Origin: Candidatus Bathyarchaeota archaeon
GTDB taxonomy: Archaea > Thermoproteota > Bathyarchaeia > Bathyarchaeales > SOJC01
Direction: 5' to 3'
Assembly (NCBI GenBank): GCA_030641425.1
Contig: DAOWHM010000106.1
Location: forward strand, 1 to 10,399
Length of the DNA stretch: 10,399 bases
The stretch's first letter is position 1. Each line of letters opens with the position of its first letter. The position numbers and the translations under genes are program-made. This document shows, one piece after another, positions 1,370-10,234 of the stretch. The notes beneath the pieces are model-generated. The model was not told the DNA's origin and did no database searches. It saw only the letters and a program-made list of their open reading frames with translations.

Positions 1370-2509
1370 TTGGTCGAAGAGATATTCCAAAAGTTCAGAG
1401 ATTGGATAGACAACCGACACGAATACGCCAAAGAATGGAAAGAAAAAACCAACCGCAAGATAATAGGTTATTTTTGCACCTATGTACCAGAAGAAATACT
1501 CTATGCAGCTGACATCTTACCAGTCAGAATTCTTGGCAGCCACGAGCCACCAACCGTTACAGAACCTTACATATTTGCGATGTTTTGCCACCTCTGTCGC
1601 GACTCTTTAGCTCAAGGCTTGAAGGGAAAATTTGATTACCTGGACGGAATCGTTGAAGGGCAATCTTGTCTTCACCTGAGACAAACATTCAACGCGTGGC
1701 GACTTCACATACCAGTTGACTATGCTTATTACATATATGTTCCCCACAGCGTCCAAACACCTCATGCAACCCCATACCTTACTCAAGAGTTAGCTAAATT
1801 CAAGCATTCGCTAGAAGAGTGGATTGGCAGGAAGGTTACCGACAGCGATCTTGACAGAGGAATAAGAACAATGAACAGAAACAGGGAGTTGATGCGGAAA
1901 ATCTATGAATACCGAAAACTCGACAACCCGAAGATAACCGGCCTTGAAGCCATGGAGATGGTGCTTTCAAGCCAGATGGTGGATAAGGAAGAGCACAGCA
2001 AACTTGTGGAGCAACTGCTGCGAGAACTTCCAAACCGAAAGTTAAATCGAAACCCCGGTACCCGTCTGATGATAATTGGAAGTGAAGACGACGACAGAAT
2101 CTTCATGCAAAACGTGGAGAATCTAGGCGCAACATTTGTAATCGATGAGCATTGTACTGGAAGCAGATACCTATGGAACAATGTAAGTCCCTCAGAAGAC
2201 AGACTAGGAGCGATCGCAGAACGCTACGTAGACAGGGTGCCGTGTCCAAGCAAAGACTGGCCAGAATTCACAAGGGTTAAACACGCTGTAAACTTAGCTC
2301 AAGAATTCAAGGCTCAAGGGGCTCTCGTAATACAGAACAAATTCTGCGACCCACATGGAATCGAAATTCCTCCTTTGAAAGAAGCCTTAAAGTCCATAGG
2401 AGTACCCATCTACCCCTTAGAATTTGATGTGACGGTTCCTTGGGGACAGTTTAGAACCCGTGTAGAAGCATTCCTAGAAACGTTGACGGGGTTGGAGGAC
2501 TTATTTTAA
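1370..2509 (+). CDS. bzdN: Benzoyl-CoA reductase, BzdN/BcrC-type subunit (HgdB-like fold)
   Basis: This 379-residue protein belongs to the 2-hydroxyacyl-CoA dehydratase/benzoyl-CoA reductase family. It would pair with the next gene product to form the active-site half that binds benzoyl-CoA and accepts low-potential electrons through a [4Fe-4S] cluster. The N-terminal family signature GYFCTYVPEEILYAADILP is at ~33-51, followed by RILGSHEP. Conserved-looking cysteines are C36, C73 and C76 (FCHLC), C100, C262 (DEHCTGSRYLW) and C326 (KFCDPHG). I cannot tell from one sequence which of them hold the cluster. The length matches the N subunit of Azoarcus-type enzymes. It is the first gene of an operon running to at least 8387. 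The family also contains 2-hydroxyglutaryl-CoA dehydratases, but the four-subunit arrangement with two different ATPases argues for benzoyl-CoA reductase. Start is TTG. Confidence 0.88.
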   Translation: MVEEIFQKFRDWIDNRHEYAKEWKEKTNRKIIGYFCTYVPEEILYAADILPVRILGSHEPPTVTEPYIFAMFCHLCRDSLAQGLKGKFDYLDGIVEGQSCLHLRQTFNAWRLHIPVDYAYYIYVPHSVQTPHATPYLTQELAKFKHSLEEWIGRKVTDSDLDRGIRTMNRNRELMRKIYEYRKLDNPKITGLEAMEMVLSSQMVDKEEHSKLVEQLLRELPNRKLNRNPGTRLMIIGSEDDDRIFMQNVENLGATFVIDEHCTGSRYLWNNVSPSEDRLGAIAERYVDRVPCPSKDWPEFTRVKHAVNLAQEFKAQGALVIQNKFCDPHGIEIPPLKEALKSIGVPIYPLEFDVTVPWGQFRTRVEAFLETLTGLEDLF

Positions 2510-2530
2510 TAATTGTCTTGAGAGATGAAA

Positions 2531-2538
2531 AGGATGGT
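2531..2538 (+). promoter_or_regulatory. Shine-Dalgarno deciding the bzdO start
   Basis: AGGATGGT precedes the ATG at 2546 by seven bases. Two earlier in-frame ATGs, at 2525 and 2534, have no comparable site: the nearest GGAGG upstream of 2525 is more than 25 bases away. Confidence 0.5.
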
Positions 2539-2545
2539 AGAAACA

Positions 2546-3874
2546 ATGAAAAAATTTCCAACTGAACAATTGAAGTGTTGGAATGAGGCCAAGAACCTAA
2601 GAAAGAGCTACTATGAGAACTATCTAAACGCCCATGAGAAAGGCGGTGTGCGCTGGGCTGGCGGTGCTTGGAGTTTCAGCTCCATACCAGCTGGACTCGG
2701 CGAAGATGTCTACAGCTTAACAGGCGAACCTTACGGAGCAACAATAGCCTTCTTCAAGGACTTCACAGCTAAATGCCACGAAGCCACCGAGGCAGCAGGC
2801 TTTCCACGCACCCTCTGCGCCTACATGAGAAACTATTGGGGCTCTATTCTACTCGACAAATACATTCTTGCTGATGGAAAAGTAATTGATGAGCATCCAG
2901 CTCCAGACTTCATATGGCAAGATCACATCTGCTGCAGCCACGGAAAATGGTATCAAGTTGCAAGGTGGCTTGAGGAAAAGAAGGGCAAAAAAGTACCTAT
3001 GTATTGTGTAGATGTTTCAGTTGGTTATCCGATGGATAAGCCTCTTGAAGAATACAAGATAAACTACATTTTTCAGCAGCTAAATGATGGAGTCGAATGG
3101 TTAGAGAAAGTTACTGGAAGAGAGTATGACGATAAATTGCTTTGTGAGGCTGTTTGGAACGAGATTAATGCAACAAGACTCTGGGCGGATATTTGCACCT
3201 TAAACCAAGCAGTCCCAGCTCCTTTGGATGAAAAGTCTATGTATTCGCTATATGTCATGGGAACTCTTATGAAGCATCGCCCCGAATGTGTTGCCTTCTA
3301 CGAGAAGCTGAAAGCCGAGGTTGAGGACAGAGTCAGAAGGGGAATAGCAGCCGTGGCCAATGAGAGATTCCGAGTGATCACTGACACCCAGCCTCCATGG
3401 GGTTTCCTACGGATTTTCAGGGAAATGGAGAAATACGGGGTTGTCTCTCTTGGTTCCCTCTATACTTATGGACTGATTGGAATGTGGAAGTATCGCCCAG
3501 ATGGAACATGGGCGACAAAAGACCTTCCGCCAAGAAAGCCACAAACAAGGGAAGAAGCCCTAAGAATGATCGTTGAATGGACAGTTGACAGACCGGAATG
3601 GGCGCACTTCTACTTACCAGAAGCAAAGACAAAGATGATATTAAGCATCGTAAAACAGTGGAAGGTTGATGCAGTCTTGCTGCACTACAATAGGGGCTGC
3701 GAGGGTTTAAGCGTTCACATAGCTGAAAACCGTCACGGCCTAGTAGAAGCAGGCGTGCCAGTTTTCCCCTTTGAGGGAAACATGGGCGACGAAAGAGAAT
3801 TCGACCTTCCAGGAACCCTAGCACGCCTAACCACCTTCTTTGAAAGTATGGGATTAAAAAAACTGAGGGAATAA
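2546..3874 (+). CDS. bzdO: Benzoyl-CoA reductase, BzdO/BcrB-type subunit
   Basis: This is the second HgdB-fold subunit of the reductase, about 442 residues, partner of the preceding gene product in the substrate-binding half. Numbered from ATG 2546, it opens with KFPTEQLKCW, then RWAGGAWSF (36-44), LTGEPYGA (58-65), LCAYMRNYWGS (90-100), HICCSHGKWYQ (127-137) and a late RGCEGLSVH segment. These aromatic and cysteine-rich blocks are typical of BzdO-like proteins and, from memory, match the Azoarcus O subunit better than generic dehydratases. The ATG at 2525 would add seven residues (MKRMVET). I prefer 2546 because of its ribosome-binding site and because homologues begin close to the FPTEQLKCW segment. 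It is 36 bases from bzdN and only five before bzdP, consistent with one transcript and balanced expression. Confidence 0.9.
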   Translation: MKKFPTEQLKCWNEAKNLRKSYYENYLNAHEKGGVRWAGGAWSFSSIPAGLGEDVYSLTGEPYGATIAFFKDFTAKCHEATEAAGFPRTLCAYMRNYWGSILLDKYILADGKVIDEHPAPDFIWQDHICCSHGKWYQVARWLEEKKGKKVPMYCVDVSVGYPMDKPLEEYKINYIFQQLNDGVEWLEKVTGREYDDKLLCEAVWNEINATRLWADICTLNQAVPAPLDEKSMYSLYVMGTLMKHRPECVAFYEKLKAEVEDRVRRGIAAVANERFRVITDTQPPWGFLRIFREMEKYGVVSLGSLYTYGLIGMWKYRPDGTWATKDLPPRKPQTREEALRMIVEWTVDRPEWAHFYLPEAKTKMILSIVKQWKVDAVLLHYNRGCEGLSVHIAENRHGLVEAGVPVFPFEGNMGDEREFDLPGTLARLTTFFESMGLKKLRE

Positions 3875-3879
3875 AAAAA

Positions 3880-4674
3880 ATGATAACAGCCGGAGTAGAT
3901 ATCGGAGCAAAATACGCGAAAATAGTGCTCCTTGAAGATGCGAAAAATATTCTTGCAAATGCTAACGGCATCGTTGGATTTGATATCTTGAAATCAGCAA
4001 CTGAAGTTTTTCAAAAAGCCTTGGACAACACGAGTCTAAAACGTGACCAGATTGTTCACGTCGTAGCCACGGGAATGGGAAGAAAAGCTATCCATATGAA
4101 ACCTCCGATAAACGCCGGAGAAATAGTTCCAGAGGTCATCGCCGACGCAAAAGGGGCTTACCATCTAATTCCGACAGTGAAAACAGTAATTGACGTTGGA
4201 GCTGAAGAAGGGAGAGGAGTAAAAGTGGGTGAAAACGGAAAGGTAAGAGACTTCGTCATCAATGAAAGATGTGCTGCAGGGGCTGGAACATTCATGGAAA
4301 CCATGGCTAGGGCGTTAGAAGTGGGTGTTGAAGACATGGGTCCTCTTGCACTAAAATCTACGAAGGCCATACCGATGAACGCCCAATGCTGTGTTTTCGC
4401 AGAGTCAGAGGTTGTGACCCTCATTCACTCAAAGACTTCAAAGGAGGACATATCAAAGGCAATACATGATGCCATGGCGGGCAGAATAGCTTCAATGGTT
4501 CTTAGAGTCGGCGTAGAAAAGGACGTAGCTCTAATTGGAGGCGTGGCGCGAAACCCAGGTTTCTTGCCACCTCTGAAGAAGGAGTTAAATACAGAAATTC
4601 TTGTTCCTGAACATCCCCAATATGTGGGTGCCCTTGGGGCAGCTTTGCTTGCGCTTGAAATGGAGGCAAAATAG
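3880..4674 (+). CDS. bzdP: Benzoyl-CoA reductase, ATPase subunit BzdP/BcrA-type
   Basis: This 264-residue ASKHA-fold (BadF/BadG/BcrA/BcrD) ATPase would form a heterodimer with the next protein, bridged by one [4Fe-4S] cluster. ATP hydrolysis there drives electron transfer into the N/O half. The first phosphate loop is GVDIGAKYAKIVLL (5-18), cluster cysteines are likely C131 (NERCAAGAG) and C170 or C171 (NAQCCVFAESE), and the adenosine segment is GGVARN (220-225). The second phosphate motif reads DVGAEEGRG (105-113) instead of the DIGGQD-type motif of the partner. The short length (about 260 residues rather than about 430) is what places the enzyme in the Bzd rather than the Thauera Bcr subtype. 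GAGGGA lies nine bases before the ATG. The gene ends TAG, directly abutting the ATG of bzdQ in the same frame. Confidence 0.88.
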   Translation: MITAGVDIGAKYAKIVLLEDAKNILANANGIVGFDILKSATEVFQKALDNTSLKRDQIVHVVATGMGRKAIHMKPPINAGEIVPEVIADAKGAYHLIPTVKTVIDVGAEEGRGVKVGENGKVRDFVINERCAAGAGTFMETMARALEVGVEDMGPLALKSTKAIPMNAQCCVFAESEVVTLIHSKTSKEDISKAIHDAMAGRIASMVLRVGVEKDVALIGGVARNPGFLPPLKKELNTEILVPEHPQYVGALGAALLALEMEAK

Positions 4675-5556
4675 ATGAGTGAAAAATCTAGAGAGTTTTG
4701 GCGTTGGCGAGAATACAGGTACACAATGCCCGACATGGATTGGCACGATACAAAAGTAGTCACAGCAGGCGTTGACATAGGATCCGTAGGCAGCAAGGCC
4801 GTAGTTATGCTTGACGGAGAGCTTTACTCTTTCGCAGCTATGAGAACAGGTGGAGAGAGCGAAGAAACAGCAATCAAAGTCATGAACTGGGCTCTTGAGG
4901 AAACAGAGTTAAAAACTGAGAATGTTCCTTACGTTGTTGGAACTGGCTATGGGAGAGTGAATGTTCCCTTCGCCAAGAGAACAATAACAGAGATCGCTTG
5001 TCACGCAAGAGGAGCCCATTACATCTACGGACCAACTGTTCGAACAGTGCTTGACATTGGAGGACAAGACTGCAAGGCTATCAGATGCGACGAAAAGGGA
5101 AAGGTCATGTCGTTCCTCATGAACGACAAGTGTGCAGCCGGGACAGGGAGGGGACTCGAGGTTTTCGCTGATCTAATTAGAGTACCAATCGAAGAGCTTG
5201 GAAAAACTTCGTTAGACGTGGAAGACGAGCCGCCACCAGTAAGTAACACGTGTGTAATTTTTGCAAAAGCTGAATCTCTGGCTCTACTACGGCAAGGACT
5301 GTCGAGAGAAAAGGTTGCAGCGGCCTACCACCTCGCCATGGTTAATCGAATAATTGACCTCCTGACAAGAGTTGGAATCGAAAAAGACTTCGTAGTCACA
5401 GGAGGAGTTGCGAAAAACACCGGGATAGTTTCTAGGCTTGAGAGAAACCTTGGAATAAAGCCCCTTGAGCCTAAGTTAGATCCAATTCTAGCTGGAGCCA
5501 TGGGAGCTGCACTATTCGCTAAGGCGCTCTATGAAAAAGAAATAGGCTTACGTTAA
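4675..5556 (+). CDS. bzdQ: Benzoyl-CoA reductase, ATPase subunit BzdQ/BcrD-type
   Basis: This is the second ASKHA ATPase of the reductase, 293 residues. An N-terminal extension rich in Trp and Tyr (FWRWREYRY, ~8-16) precedes the first phosphate loop AGVDIGSVGSKAVVM (31-45). The second phosphate loop is DIGGQDCK (127-134). Cluster cysteines are C153 (NDKCAAGTG) and C193 (SNTCVIFAKAE). The adenosine motif is GGVAKN (243-248). All expected motifs of the BcrD/HgdC family are intact. GGAGG at 4662-4666, eight bases before the ATG and inside the bzdP coding end, gives it its own initiation site although it follows the bzdP stop with no gap. The extension is longer than in BcrD of the Thauera type and agrees with the Bzd subtype. 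Confidence 0.9.
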   Translation: MSEKSREFWRWREYRYTMPDMDWHDTKVVTAGVDIGSVGSKAVVMLDGELYSFAAMRTGGESEETAIKVMNWALEETELKTENVPYVVGTGYGRVNVPFAKRTITEIACHARGAHYIYGPTVRTVLDIGGQDCKAIRCDEKGKVMSFLMNDKCAAGTGRGLEVFADLIRVPIEELGKTSLDVEDEPPPVSNTCVIFAKAESLALLRQGLSREKVAAAYHLAMVNRIIDLLTRVGIEKDFVVTGGVAKNTGIVSRLERNLGIKPLEPKLDPILAGAMGAALFAKALYEKEIGLR

Positions 5557-5570
5557 AAGGAGAAGACAAA

Positions 5571-5855
5571 ATGCAAGCTCATTATGGCTATAAGGATGGT
5601 TCCGGAGACTACTTCATCATTATTGACACCGACAAATGTAACGGATGTGGAAAATGTGTCAATGCATGTCCTTATGGCGTTCTTGAGTTAATCGAGGACG
5701 AATTTGACATTGAAGGCGGATTAATGGCAGCAGTAACCGAAGAACAGCGCAAGAAAATTAAGTATAGCTGTGGACCTTGCAAGCCAGTAAGCGGAGAAAG
5801 AAGACTTCCATGCGTCTTAGCATGTGAACCTAAGGCGATAACCCATTCTTGGTAG
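5571..5855 (+). CDS. bzdM: 2x[4Fe-4S] ferredoxin, BzdM-like
   Basis: This 94-residue ferredoxin is probably the direct electron donor to the BzdPQ ATPase module. The first cluster motif is C23-x2-C26-x2-C29-x3-C33-P. The second is spread out: C67-x2-C70 (CGPC), then C81-x3-C85 in PCVLACEPKAI, with ten residues between the two pairs. The protein ends HSW followed by TAG. AAAAGGAG eight bases before the ATG is a good ribosome-binding site. A ferredoxin directly after the Q subunit is the arrangement recalled for Azoarcus bzdNOPQM. The TAG at 5853-5855 is in frame with the following flavoprotein, whose coding sequence continues without a standard start codon, so a fused product cannot be excluded. 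AIxHSW looks like a natural ferredoxin end, which favours two separate proteins. Confidence 0.85.
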   Translation: MQAHYGYKDGSGDYFIIIDTDKCNGCGKCVNACPYGVLELIEDEFDIEGGLMAAVTEEQRKKIKYSCGPCKPVSGERRLPCVLACEPKAITHSW

Positions 5856-5867
5856 GGAAAGCCTATC
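5853..5867 (+). promoter_or_regulatory. Candidate initiation region with non-standard ATC start
   Basis: The ferredoxin stop lies within GGTAGGGA, which resembles a ribosome-binding site. Seven bases after TAGGG comes ATC (5865-5867), followed by PEAVKLFINDVEV, the expected beginning of a NuoG-type [2Fe-2S] domain. The geometry is that of a normal start with the third base changed. No ATG, GTG or TTG occurs in this frame until 5988. Confidence 0.4.
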
Positions 5868-8387
5868 CCAGAAGCTGTCAAGCTCTTCATCAACGACGTC
5901 GAGGTTAAGGCGGAACAAGGTGAAACCATTCTTGAGGCTGCCATAGGAATAGATGTTTACATCCCCTCTCTTTGTCATCATCCAGATTTGCCACCACCTG
6001 ACGAAGCTAAATCCATAGAAGCTATATATCGTGGCAACGAGAAAATTGTAAGTGAATTTTCTGAAAGGCAATTTGAAGGTTGTAAACTGTGCCTAGTCAA
6101 AGTTAAGGGTCAAGAAGAACTCGTTCCTGCATGTTGTACACCTGTTTCCGATAAAATGAAAGTCTTCACTGACACAGAGCAAGTTCGCGAAGAAAGAAAA
6201 GTTCAGTTAATGCGCATCTTAGCTAGGCACCCACATGCATGTCTTATCTGTGCTCAAAAGGAAGGCTGTACAACAGAGCCTTGCTCAACAAACGTTCCAG
6301 TGGAGGAGCGTTGCTGCCCGCAATTTGGCAACTGTGAACTAGAAAGCATTGCGGAATACATTGGAATCAGAGAGGACACCTCCAGGTATATCCCGCAAAA
6401 TCTTCCTGTGATAAAGAATGCCCCCCTTTTCTTACGTGACTACAATCTCTGCATTGGATGCACCCGCTGTGTCAGGGCATGCCAAGAGCTTCGCGGTGTT
6501 GGAGCCTTAGGTTTCGTTTACAAAAATGGGGAGGTTTTCGTTGGAACGGTGGCGCCAACGCTTATGGATTCTGATTGCCGGTTCTGCGGGGCCTGTGTAG
6601 AGGTTTGCCCCACAGGAGCGTTAAGGGATAAAGAACTAAAGACCGCAAGACGTGAAGCCGATTTAGTTCCATGTAAATATGCTTGTCCAGCAAACGTTGA
6701 TGTTCCAAGATATATCCAACTAATCTCTGAAGGCAGGGTTGCTGAGGCTGCGGCTGTCATAAGAGAAAAGTTGCCGTTGCCAAATGTTCTAGCCCACGCT
6801 TGCTCCCGTCCATGCGAGAATGTTTGTAGACGGCGAGAGGTCAACGAGGCTGTTTCAATTTGCAGCCTAAAACGTTTTGCAATGGAAAATGACACAGAAA
6901 TATGGAAAGAAAAATTGGAGATTGCAAAGCCAACGGGGAAAAAAGTCGCCATAATAGGCGCTGGCCCAGCAGGACTGAGCGCAGCCTACTACTTGGTTAG
7001 ACTGGGTCATTCAGTTACCGTCTTCGAAGCCATGCCTGAACCAGGTGGAATGATGCGCTATGGTGTCCAGGAATACCGTCTACCGAAGATAATAATTGAA
7101 GAAGACATTCGAGAAATTGCTGATATAGGCGTAGAGATCAAAACGGATGTTGCCTTTGGAGAGGATCTAACATTTGAATCTCTCAAGAGCGATAGTTTTA
7201 GCGCTACTATTATCGCTGTAGGTTTGCAGACTAGCAGAAAGCTGCAGGTTGATGGTGCTGACTTGGCAGGTGTAGTCACTGGACTCGACTTTTTGAAGGA
7301 TGTTAGGGCTGGCAAAGCCCGAAACCTGAAGGGTAAAGCGTTAGTGATAGGAGGCGGCAACGTTGCAATGGATGCTGCTCTAACAGCATTAAGGCTTAGG
7401 GCCAGTGATGTGCAAGTTATCTGTTTAGAGAACTCCGAAGAGATGCCGGCCTTCGCGTGGGAAGTCCAACAAGCGCTTCAAGAAGGAGTGAAGATTCATA
7501 ACTCCTATGGAGTCAAGAAGATTTTGGGGAAAGATGGCAAAGTATTCGCAGTTGAGCTTATGTGTTGTCTCTCAGTGTTTGATGAGGAAGGAGAATTTCA
7601 TCCATCGTTCGATGAAGAAAAGACAATGCTGATCGAAACTGACACAATAATACTGGCAATAGGTCAAGCCCCGGATCTTTCTTGGCAGACCACAAGCCAG
7701 TTGAAGATATCAGAATCGAAGTTGGCACATGTAGACCTATCGGCAATTGAAACCAACATGCCAGGTGTGTTTATGTGTGGAGATATCGTCAAAGGTCCCA
7801 CATCAATTGTTGAGGCATTGGCTTCAGGCAGACAAACTGCCTTTGCTGTCGACAAGTACCTTGGTGGAACAGGAATTCTTGAGGATAGATTTGTAGACTA
7901 TGCGAAGCCAAATCCATGGCTTGGAAAAGTGGAGAAGCTTGCGTACAAGCAATCTGTGCCAATGTCTTGCTTGCCCGTTGAAGAGCGGACAGGAAATTTC
8001 CTTGAGGTTGAACTAGGCTACAATGAGAAAATGGCTCAAGAGGAGGCTAGCCGTTGTCTGAGATGTGATTTGAGATTGAACATTCAACAAGCAGCCCAGC
8101 CTCCTGAAAAATGGTTGAAACTAGACGCCTCCACTGTTGCTAATGTTCCTGAAACGGATGGGGTATATCAACTCCTGAATGAAAACAACGAAGCAATCTA
8201 TATCAAAGGCACCCTGAACCTAAGAAAAGACCTTCAGGAACAGCTAACCACCAACCCTGAAGCTAAACGTTTTCTGTACGAAGAAGCAAAAATGTTTACT
8301 ACAAGAGAAAGCGAGCTTCTCCAGCAATTCCTCAAAAAACATGGAAGGCTACCAAGACAGAATGTGGACATCGATGATCTCTACTAA
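5865..8387 (+). CDS. NuoG/GltD-type iron-sulfur flavoprotein, putative NAD(P)H:ferredoxin oxidoreductase
   Basis: This fusion of about 840 residues probably supplies reduced ferredoxin for benzoyl-CoA reduction. Numbering from ATC 5865, the NuoG-like part has a [2Fe-2S] site (C37, C73, C76, C90, with a ~30-residue insert after C37), a His-Cys cluster site H122-x3-C126-x2-C129-x5-C135, and two [4Fe-4S] sites (C196/199/202/206 and C238/241/244/248). The GltD-like part has its cysteine helix domain (C270, C274, C313, C317, C321), an FAD loop GAGPAG (365-370) ending at E388, an NAD(P) loop GGGNVAMD (496-503), and CGDIVKGPTSIVEAL near the end. Residues ~760-830 form an extra GIY-YIG-like domain. 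Starting at TTG 5988 would remove C37 and the beta-grasp core, so the true start is upstream, where no standard start codon exists. The electron direction and the NADH or NADPH choice are inferred. Azoarcus clusters carry a comparable oxidoreductase gene (bzdV), but I do not assign that name with confidence. Confidence 0.85.
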   Translation: MPEAVKLFINDVEVKAEQGETILEAAIGIDVYIPSLCHHPDLPPPDEAKSIEAIYRGNEKIVSEFSERQFEGCKLCLVKVKGQEELVPACCTPVSDKMKVFTDTEQVREERKVQLMRILARHPHACLICAQKEGCTTEPCSTNVPVEERCCPQFGNCELESIAEYIGIREDTSRYIPQNLPVIKNAPLFLRDYNLCIGCTRCVRACQELRGVGALGFVYKNGEVFVGTVAPTLMDSDCRFCGACVEVCPTGALRDKELKTARREADLVPCKYACPANVDVPRYIQLISEGRVAEAAAVIREKLPLPNVLAHACSRPCENVCRRREVNEAVSICSLKRFAMENDTEIWKEKLEIAKPTGKKVAIIGAGPAGLSAAYYLVRLGHSVTVFEAMPEPGGMMRYGVQEYRLPKIIIEEDIREIADIGVEIKTDVAFGEDLTFESLKSDSFSATIIAVGLQTSRKLQVDGADLAGVVTGLDFLKDVRAGKARNLKGKALVIGGGNVAMDAALTALRLRASDVQVICLENSEEMPAFAWEVQQALQEGVKIHNSYGVKKILGKDGKVFAVELMCCLSVFDEEGEFHPSFDEEKTMLIETDTIILAIGQAPDLSWQTTSQLKISESKLAHVDLSAIETNMPGVFMCGDIVKGPTSIVEALASGRQTAFAVDKYLGGTGILEDRFVDYAKPNPWLGKVEKLAYKQSVPMSCLPVEERTGNFLEVELGYNEKMAQEEASRCLRCDLRLNIQQAAQPPEKWLKLDASTVANVPETDGVYQLLNENNEAIYIKGTLNLRKDLQEQLTTNPEAKRFLYEEAKMFTTRESELLQQFLKKHGRLPRQNVDIDDLY
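8100..8384 (+). other. GIY-YIG-like C-terminal domain of the flavoprotein
   Basis: After the GltD-like module, the last ~90 residues read PETDGVYQLL, then AIYIKGTLNLRKDL and TTRESELLQQFLKKHGRLP. The order GVY, about ten residues, IYI-KG, NLR and a downstream ESELL helix follows the GIY-YIG core (Y768, Y779, R787, E815 or E817 from the 5865 start). A nuclease role in a redox enzyme seems unlikely. The domain may serve binding or oligomerisation. The assignment rests on motif order only. Confidence 0.5.
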
Positions 8388-8599: not shown

Positions 8600-9064
8600 T
8601 TAGTTTATTCTTCGAAAGCGGTAGAAGACTCTTCCGTCTTCAAGTTCCACAATCTTTAGTTTGACTCTTTCTCCAATCTTCAAATTCTCATATCTTGCAT
8701 CGTCAATCCGCGCTGAAATCAGTAAACTGCCTATTTTGACCATGCCAATGCAGAACGGTACGTCTTGAGCAAAGCCTAATGGTGGTCCGGCTTTCATCTC
8801 GGTAAAAGCGTAAAGTTCACCCTCAACGCCCAAGTCTACCCATTCCAGTTTGTCCGAGAGGCAGCCTGAACAGACAATTCTTGGTGGCCACAGAAGATTG
8901 CCACATTCTTTACATTTCGTTGTCGTTAAACGTCCTTCTCTGAGGCTCTTGAAGAACTGACTGATTCTTGTGTTTTTCTCGTCTTCTAACGGATAGAAAT
9001 CTAGCATGTATGGAAGTTTTATGTTTTCCGGTCGTTTTATCTTCTCAAACTCTACGTTCCCCAT
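8600..9064 (-). CDS. DUF35 zinc-ribbon/OB-fold acyl-CoA-associated protein, thiolase partner
   Basis: This 154-residue protein has a rubredoxin-like zinc ribbon, C51-x2-C54-x10-C65-x2-C68 (CKECGNLLWPPRIVCSGC), followed by an OB-fold domain (GVEGELYAFTEMKAGPPLGF and PFCIGMVKI). This is the complete DUF35 family layout, here with a ~45-residue N-terminal helix segment. Family members bind CoA moieties and in archaea form complexes with thiolases or HMG-CoA synthase, bridging or channelling acyl-CoA between active sites. It starts three bases after the thiolase stop, and AGGGG in the thiolase coding end supplies its ribosome-binding site, so the two are translationally coupled and very probably form one complex. 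Substrate is unknown; beta-oxidation intermediates of ring cleavage are a reasonable guess from location. Confidence 0.85.
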   Translation of the reverse strand: MGNVEFEKIKRPENIKLPYMLDFYPLEDEKNTRISQFFKSLREGRLTTTKCKECGNLLWPPRIVCSGCLSDKLEWVDLGVEGELYAFTEMKAGPPLGFAQDVPFCIGMVKIGSLLISARIDDARYENLKIGERVKLKIVELEDGRVFYRFRRIN

Positions 9065-9067
9065 ATT

Positions 9068-10234
9068 CTAACCCCTCGAATAAACCAGGAGACTGTGCAC
9101 GTTTGCTGCGCCACTCAGGTTATGGGTGACTGCTGTTTCTGCGTCTTTGACATACCTTCCTCTAGGTACTTCTCCTCTGAATTGATGCAGTATGTCTATG
9201 GATTGAAGAATTGCTGTGGCACCTAGAGGGTGTCCGCAACCGAGTAGTCCTCCTCTTGGGTTCACAGCTACTTTTCCGCCAATGTAGGGTTCGCCGTCTT
9301 CGATGAATTCTCCACCTTTGCCCTTTTCACACCAACCGAACGCTTCGTATTCCATTATTTCAGAAATTGTGAAGCAATCATGTAACTCAGCGATATCAAT
9401 GTCGTTTACTGAGATTTTTGCTGTTCTTAACGCTTCTTTGACAGCTAGTTTAAGGGGAACCCACTCAGAAATACTTGCCAAGTTGTTTATTGCGTTTCCT
9501 ATGTTAGCTTGTCCCGATCCAACGATGTACATGGGGGTGTCTGTGTATTTTTTTGCATCTTCAGCAGGAACTATAAAGACTCCAGCAGCACCGTCGGTTA
9601 TCCCGCTGCAATCAAACAAGCTTAGTGGTGGAGCTATCATCAGTGACTGAAGTACCTTTTCAACTGTGACTTCCTTCTGAAATTGGGCTATGGGATTCAT
9701 CGTTGAATAATGGTGATTCTTCACAGAGACGAGTGCCATCTGCTCTTTGGTAGTTCCAAACTCGTACATGTGTCTTTGAGCGGTCATCGCAAAGAATGGT
9801 GGTGCTGACATTGCATTGACACCATCCCACTCTCGATCCAACACACATGTCATATTTGTCTGAGCCTCAGCCATGTTTGGCATATACATCTTCTCCACGC
9901 CAAGAGCAACCGCCACATCAGCAATACCACTCGCAACGCAAGCCCACGCATATCGAATAGCGGCTTGTCCGGAAGCACACATAAGTTCAGTTGTTGCAAT
10001 TACCTTCGTTGGAGTTATACCTAAGTGTTCAGCAACCATAGGGGCGACATGGACTTGAAACGTGAATCTCTCGGGTTGAGCGGCTCCCACGAGGAGTGCT
10101 TCAACGTCTTTGGGAGAAATGTTGTCAACATTGTCGAACATCGCCTTTCCCGCTTCTTGCACCAATTCTCTCCAAGTAGCCTCACGTTTGCCACATTTTG
10201 TGGCACCTCCGCCTACGATGGCGACTTTTCTCAC
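9068..10234 (-). CDS. SCP2-type thiolase (acetyl-CoA C-acyltransferase family)
   Basis: This 388-residue protein is a full-length thiolase of the SCP2/archaeal type. The nucleophile is C86 in ELMCASGQAA, a conserved HDCF replaces the NEAF of classical thiolases (H285), and GCGHPLGAT gives H335 near the C-terminus. Such enzymes cleave 3-ketoacyl-CoA or condense acyl-CoAs. The next gene, DUF35, is the usual partner. Upstream in the same direction is an enoyl-CoA hydratase, so the group looks like a beta-oxidation unit that could process the pimelyl-CoA intermediates formed after ring opening, although a general fatty-acid or mevalonate role is equally possible from sequence alone. The start is GTG at 10234 with AGGGTG five bases before it, and the N-terminus RKVAIVGGGATKCGK is typical. 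It ends TAG, in frame with the following DUF35 gene. Confidence 0.88.
   Translation of the reverse strand: MRKVAIVGGGATKCGKREATWRELVQEAGKAMFDNVDNISPKDVEALLVGAAQPERFTFQVHVAPMVAEHLGITPTKVIATTELMCASGQAAIRYAWACVASGIADVAVALGVEKMYMPNMAEAQTNMTCVLDREWDGVNAMSAPPFFAMTAQRHMYEFGTTKEQMALVSVKNHHYSTMNPIAQFQKEVTVEKVLQSLMIAPPLSLFDCSGITDGAAGVFIVPAEDAKKYTDTPMYIVGSGQANIGNAINNLASISEWVPLKLAVKEALRTAKISVNDIDIAELHDCFTISEIMEYEAFGWCEKGKGGEFIEDGEPYIGGKVAVNPRGGLLGCGHPLGATAILQSIDILHQFRGEVPRGRYVKDAETAVTHNLSGAANVHSLLVYSRG

Follow-up and report, generated by a model that had tools for sequence, protein, structure and literature searches.

The archaeal DNA analysed here is a stretch of 10,399 nucleotides (the window) from a Candidatus Bathyarchaeota archaeon (assembly GCA_030641425.1, contig DAOWHM010000106.1; G000:C104 in our genome set, where the genome totals 1.0 Mb over 145 contigs and is 79.5% complete). 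Its central genes appear to form a bzd-type benzoyl-CoA reductase operon for the breakdown of aromatic compounds, closed by a ferredoxin gene and a flavoprotein gene (Table 1). The flavoprotein, which we take to be BzdV from its place in the operon, has no standard start codon ahead of its first domain, and the question is where its translation begins.

From 5856 the flavoprotein frame runs uninterrupted until its stop codon, whose last base is 8387; its first 44 codons, 5856 to 5987, include no ATG, GTG or TTG. The sequence-only reading of this DNA had described the ferredoxin stop, the open frame, the first cysteine codon of the [2Fe-2S] domain, the first TTG and an ATC at 5865 as a possible start, and all of these coordinates are exact to the base. 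The chance of 44 codons without a standard start is (61/64)^44, about 0.12, which by itself is not rare; the gap goes beyond chance because it is conserved: 5' DNA can be read in 19 orthologues, and 10 of them share the lack. The annotation in current use starts at the TTG and is without the first [2Fe-2S] ligand. The best PDB match, 9bov, a formate-dehydrogenase-like molybdopterin oxidoreductase, shares the first strand and the first ligand stretch with the flavoprotein; its first strand VRVNIDNKEIFAEEGKTILE (residues 4-23) aligns with flavoprotein residues 5-24 counted from ATC 5865. Seven bases separate this ATC from a GGTAGGG.

Table 1. Features of the window, with positions counted from its first base
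Feature	Position	Strand	Remarks
BzdN-like benzoyl-CoA reductase subunit, TTG start	1370..2509	+	TIGR03190 446.6 bits, just below the cut-off of 453.8; PF06050 over cut-off
BzdO benzoyl-CoA reductase subunit	2525..3874	+	TIGR03191 547.8 bits, cut-off 448.6
BcrAD/BadFG-type ATPase subunit in the BzdP position	3880..4674	+	PF01869; TIGR00241 over cut-off
BzdQ ATPase subunit	4675..5556	+	TIGR03192 383.4 bits, cut-off 380.2
4Fe-4S ferredoxin, ATG 5571, stop TAG 5853-5855	5571..5855	+	Fer4 families
GGTAGGG, weak Shine-Dalgarno-like site overlapping the ferredoxin stop	5851..5857	+	duplex with the 16S tail -5.4 kcal/mol
ATC, probable initiation codon of the flavoprotein	5865..5867	+	ATC, ATT or ATA here in 10/10 orthologues of the clade
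Flavoprotein, 840 amino acids counted from ATC	5865..8387	+	NuoG-type [2Fe-2S] + Fe-S N-terminus, GltD-like FAD/NAD(P) part, DUF7508 tail
First Cys codon of the [2Fe-2S] domain, residue 37 from ATC	5973..5975	+	
TTG, first standard start, inside the domain	5988..5990	+	annotated start of P0001, 799 amino acids

With the first 273 residues encoded by the open frame as query, 21 of 256 Bathyarchaeia genomes gave an orthologue at E values up to 1e-40. Their 5' DNA is readable in 19, the gene starting at a contig end in G185 and being masked there in G106. Nine of the 19 start with ATG or GTG (G048, G051, G104, G110, G001, G105, G004, G011 and G008), and ten, including the window's own genome, have no ATG, GTG or TTG from the in-frame stop to the first strand. 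The alignment of orthologues, named as a check in the sequence-only reading, places an isoleucine codon (ATH) at the position of ATC 5865 in all ten: ATC in G000, G007, G017, G042, G005, G003 and G010, ATT in G060 and G203, and ATA in G174. These are near-cognate codons, each one base off AUG and conserved in position (ATC seven times, ATT twice, ATA once), with a G-run 6-8 bases 5' of the codon in every case. The residue after ATH is Pro, Ser or Thr in 10 of 10, and such second residues permit removal of the first methionine. The presence of ATH throughout the clade, at a constant place and behind a G-run, supports initiation at ATC 5865, and it is very probable on this comparative evidence that translation of the flavoprotein begins there.

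The residues upstream of the annotated start, judged by how their codons differ, evolve as protein. When all pairs of eight orthologues are compared over codons 2-41, the differences number 302 at the first, 186 at the second and 588 at the third codon position; this count omits G007, which is near-identical, and G017, which is one codon shorter. The claim that the first standard start would destroy the domain holds for seven of the ten orthologues, the window included, where this codon lies after the first Cys; it is less exact for the other three, where the codon falls inside the first beta-hairpin (TTG at residue 7 in G017, ATG at residue 14 in G005, TTG at residue 14 in G003). The window's flavoprotein and that of G007:C25, which belong to two genera, are 97% identical over the first 273 residues and 85% over the whole protein; this uneven divergence is perhaps due to recombination.

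The ten ATH orthologues form one clade, with support 99/100, against the nine relatives that start with ATG or GTG. As far as the tree tells, the ATH start would have arisen once. It has been kept across at least three third-base changes although ATG is one step away, which is suggestive of selection but not proof of it. The distance from the ferredoxin TAG to ATH is 9 nucleotides in eight orthologues, 10 in G174 and 14 in G203. In the last two the flavoprotein frame differs from that of the ferredoxin and ATH is still kept; G203 also has a TAA in the flavoprotein frame two codons 5' of its ATT.

These junctions bear on the proposal that TAG 5853 is read through, or decoded as pyrrolysine, to give a ferredoxin-flavoprotein fusion. 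A common frame for the two genes, as a fusion would need, is found in eight of the ten orthologues, with the window among them. Three of these eight (G005, G003 and G010) read TAG GGA TAA CCT ATC, with two ferredoxin-frame stops before the ATC, and together with the frame change in two more orthologues this excludes readthrough or pyrrolysine as the conserved mechanism. None of the nine standard-start relatives is fused as far as they were read, and the pyrrolysine enzyme PylS (TIGR02367) is over its cut-off in 0 of the 10 genomes, which are partly incomplete and all give weak matches below it. A fusion is thus extremely improbable. Even less credence can be given to a base error or a recent mutation that erased an ATG: a single assembly can contain errors, but the entire junction of G007, from another genus, is identical base for base, and ATH is found in eight more genomes, so that the same feature recurs in unrelated assemblies. 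A +1 frameshift from the out-of-frame TTG in TCTTGGTAG was also considered and rejected; the sites are unlike among orthologues, and the flavoprotein frame shifts relative to the TTG in G174 and G203.

A different non-AUG codon in this stretch could instead serve as the start, the likeliest candidate being GTC 5877-5879, the V of VKLFIND. Among the 39 closest database homologues, annotated starts fall after the first Cys in 19, within the hairpin in 9 and at residue 5 in 11, as sorted by a rough motif rule. The first two groups are expected if gene finders miss the true start. The remaining 11 are annotated from a standard codon, GTG or ATG, at the place of GTC 5877 (KLFIND), and residue 5 may be their true start. 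GTC initiation is documented for sigR of Streptomyces (PMC5472188). Across the ten orthologues, however, the codon at 5877 varies (GTC, GTT, ATT, ATC, GCA) whereas the ATH codon is constant, and GTC 5877 lies 19 bases past GGTAGGG, compared with 7 for ATC. A start at GTC 5877 is therefore unlikely, and ATC 5865 is retained as the start.

The candidate near-cognate starts have upstream sites that can pair with 16S rRNA. Duplex energies were calculated for positions -20 to -5 against the 16S tail GGATCACCTCC, which was found in 4 of the 10 genomes with one mismatch allowed. The mean energy is -6.2 kcal/mol for the bzdV starts (n=10), -7.0 for the other curated near-cognate starts described below (n=25), -5.2 for ATG starts (n=182) and -3.6 for internal near-cognate codons (n=1277). 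Rank tests against the internal codons give p values of 4e-5 for bzdV and 2e-10 for the other curated starts, or 1e-6 by gene family (ten families); these values are descriptive, since related sequences are not independent.

Further candidate near-cognate starts, which the sequence-only reading had not anticipated, were found by comparing orthologues in parts of three genomes of this one class. Samples of 800 kb each from G005 and G003, compared with one another, gave 275 reciprocal best pairs, of which 225 have at least 40% identity over 60 residues. By the rule used, a standard start is lacking in both genomes in 24 of these 225 pairs and in one genome in 28; flagged pairs were accepted by eye, several with the upstream site in view, and three from each group were kept. 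These 6 of 225 pairs are a lower bound for the rule and depend on judgement by eye. Comparing G005 and G003 each with 800 kb of G024, from another family, gave 130 and 123 pairs, with 11 and 10 flagged, and added four further families and the G024 copy of an ESCRT-III-like gene. The other flagged G005/G003 pairs show a standard codon in or close to the conserved start position, upstream DNA that is conserved but non-coding, or shadow frames, and A_+_211745 and A_-_610072 were dropped as doubtful. A separate observation from this comparison concerns about 37 conserved codons 5' of the ATG of a MoaA-like radical-SAM gene (G005:C1, about 1051560-1051670, and its G003 counterpart; A_+_51553 / B_-_496796); this stretch may represent a structured leader instead of coding sequence.

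Ten families were retained in which the conserved start position offers, in at least one of the three genome samples, a near-cognate codon and no standard one. Besides the flavoprotein (ATC in G005 and in G003), they are adenylate kinase (ACG in both of these genomes), a Snf7/ESCRT-III-like gene (ATT in both, ATA in G024), eL22 (ATA in G005, ATG in G003), RpoK (ACG in G003 and G024), Alba (CTG in G024) and Pop5 (CTG in one genome and GTG in another, one codon apart). The others are rubrerythrin (ATA versus ATG), a membrane protein with no Pfam match (ATC versus GTG) and a small FUR-like protein below the Pfam cut-off (ATC).

The range of codons also bears on whether the mRNAs are edited, or whether a variant initiator tRNA reads these codons. 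C-to-U editing turns ACG into AUG in plant organelles, a precedent for the first of these, but it could not repair AUC, AUU, AUA or CUG. No initiator tRNA or tRNA-Met was found in the sampled part of G005. Editing or a variant tRNA is quite improbable. Loss of aIF1 was rejected as a general cause, PF01253 being over its cut-off in 15 of 16 genomes; only in G003 was aIF1 (SUI1, PF01253) not found, through either loss or an assembly gap.

Adenylate kinase matched in 171 genomes of the class, and 30 loci were read. Within the window's family, 5 of 11 loci have ACG without a standard start (G000, G001, G002, G003 and G005), G010 has ACG at the start place with in-frame ATGs upstream, and the remaining five have ATG exactly at that place. 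The ACG of the window's own genome (G000) is preceded by a TAA two codons 5'. In the other families of the class all 19 loci have a standard start, and outside the class a standard start lies at the place, or a few codons from it, in 20 of the 20 species read, which is a sound control.

RpoK was read in 48 of the 50 Bathyarchaeia loci that were fetched. The frame that begins with ACG is RpoK/Rpb6 (PF01192, 37.1 bits against a cut-off of 26). ACG stands at the start place in 32 of the 48 loci, the window's genome among them, in at least the families f1, f2, f4, f6 and f7, and is usually followed by a Ser codon. Ten of these 32 have an in-frame stop 0-2 codons 5' with no standard codon between, and twelve have no standard codon in the stretch read. 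ATC apparently replaces ACG in G006 and G048, while G050, G138, G143, G055, G047, G216 and G044 have ATG near the place and G019 has GTG; six loci were not judgeable (G222, G023, G068, G080, G211 and G212). Beyond the class, the motif was matched in 15 of 20 stretches, where the N-termini are long and variable and give no usable control for rpoK. Two loci of the same phylum outside the class, L304 (G283) and L307 (G269), have rpoK without a standard start codon in the stretch read, and near-cognate starts may extend past Bathyarchaeia. A ribosome-profiling (Ribo-seq) study of Methanosarcina mazei notes that rpoK is N-terminally extended relative to its annotation (PMC11456600), which may hint that trouble with the rpoK start is wider than Bathyarchaeia.

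Comparison across these genomes suggests that start choice in Bathyarchaeia is probably relaxed, with a few percent of genes starting at AUA, AUC, AUU, ACG or CUG. This reading takes in rpoK, adenylate kinase, the ESCRT-III-like gene, Alba, eL22 and Pop5, with some of the codons kept through the split of several families; for the class as a whole it is supported mainly by rpoK and adenylate kinase. Several observations weigh against it or against the ATC start. The ten bzdV genes are a single clade and hence one conserved event, their G-run is a weak Shine-Dalgarno site, and 11 of the closest homologues are annotated from residue 5, as described above. The energy comparison was not blind, since the upstream site was visible when several of the non-bzdV cases were judged by eye. 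For rpoK, 10 of the 32 ACG loci have an in-frame GTG or ATG upstream, within the preceding gene, a TCP-1/cpn60 chaperonin (identified in G003), and in the window's own genome no stop interrupts the rpoK frame over more than 17 codons 5' of the ACG, with no standard codon in the part read.

It is possible to outline how such starts would work. AUC 5865-5867 would be read as Met by the ordinary initiator tRNA, pairing at two of the three bases. Initiation nine bases downstream of UAG 5853 would fall either to the ribosome that has just finished the ferredoxin there or to a fresh 30S subunit set in place by the G-run overlapping this stop. Near-cognate initiation at AUC, AUU, AUA, ACG and CUG would then be general in this group of Bathyarchaeia and conserved in part, assisted by Shine-Dalgarno sites and close upstream stop codons, and in the flavoprotein and rpoK a nearby terminating ribosome may assist. 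We infer initiation at these codons, the insertion of Met and the role of coupling from the codons themselves, their conservation, their alignment with the ATG and GTG starts of orthologues, and the upstream sites.

Parts of this scheme resemble known systems. In Haloferax volcanii, termination-reinitiation coupling acts over short distances, and the bzdV start 9, 10 or 14 bases past the upstream stop is in a similar place; the Haloferax coupling, however, occurs mainly at overlaps and is about halved at 13-14 nucleotides (40-60% efficiency left), and the gene pairs of that study were not picked for non-AUG starts (PMC10666635). In E. coli a terminated ribosome can restart at non-canonical codons, but there this is a leak in engineered constructs, whereas the Bathyarchaeia starts are natural and conserved (PMC4648390). 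Conserved non-AUG starts overlooked by gene finders are described for infC of bacteria (AUU, and AUC in Streptomyces) and for sigR of Streptomyces (GTC) (PMC5472188). Those are single regulated genes under bacterial IF3, whereas in Bathyarchaeia the starts belong to the flavoprotein and several core genes, which are not known to be regulated in this way, and aIF1 replaces IF3. Chloroplasts also keep non-AUG starts in certain genes through evolution, but in an organelle with bacterial-type initiation (PMC9845219). In E. coli, AUU works at only about 0.3% of AUG efficiency (Hecht et al. 2017, as cited in PMC10666635), so core genes would need strong contexts or a laxer apparatus. In Sulfolobus and Pyrococcus aIF1 selects against non-canonical starts (PMC6237735 and PMC8211752).

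The operon around the flavoprotein is assigned mainly by NCBIfam cut-offs, with BzdO and BzdQ over theirs and BzdN just short. We infer the name BzdP for the first ATPase subunit from its operon position. The flavoprotein reaches no equivalog cut-off in NCBIfam. A domain of unknown function, DUF7508 (PF24348), is over its cut-off in the C-terminal part of the flavoprotein (window 8118-8336, open-frame residues 752-824). The content of N, O, P and Q subunits, ferredoxin and flavoprotein is the same as in the bzd operon of Azoarcus; the differences are that the window's host is archaeal and that its flavoprotein stays below every equivalog cut-off. The flanking genes, judged by sequence alone, appear to encode an enoyl-CoA hydratase (438-1214), an OB-fold protein with zinc-finger-like cysteines (8600-9064) and a thiolase (9068-10234), all on the minus strand, and they would place the benzoyl-CoA reductase operon in a beta-oxidation setting.

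Near-cognate starts are known for individual genes; what appears to be new is that core genes across an archaeal order use them in a conserved way. No report of non-AUG starts in Bathyarchaeia, or of such starts as a trait of any archaeal lineage, was found in the literature searched, which left most subscription papers out of reach. Prokaryotic gene finders assume AUG, GUG or UUG starts. In 36 bacterial and archaeal groups, 61,358 ancestral AUG starts gave two switches to CUG and one to AUU, a count made on annotated starts (PMC5622118). If relaxed start choice is real, the initiation apparatus of Bathyarchaeia would be less strict in rejecting near-cognate codons than its counterpart in model archaea, and present annotations of the group would systematically truncate or miss such genes. 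A lineage that keeps ACG and AUH starts in core genes would be a natural test of how aIF1, aIF1A and e/aIF2 set start stringency, and many truncated or missing proteins would be corrected in a group that ranks among the most abundant of the uncultured archaea.

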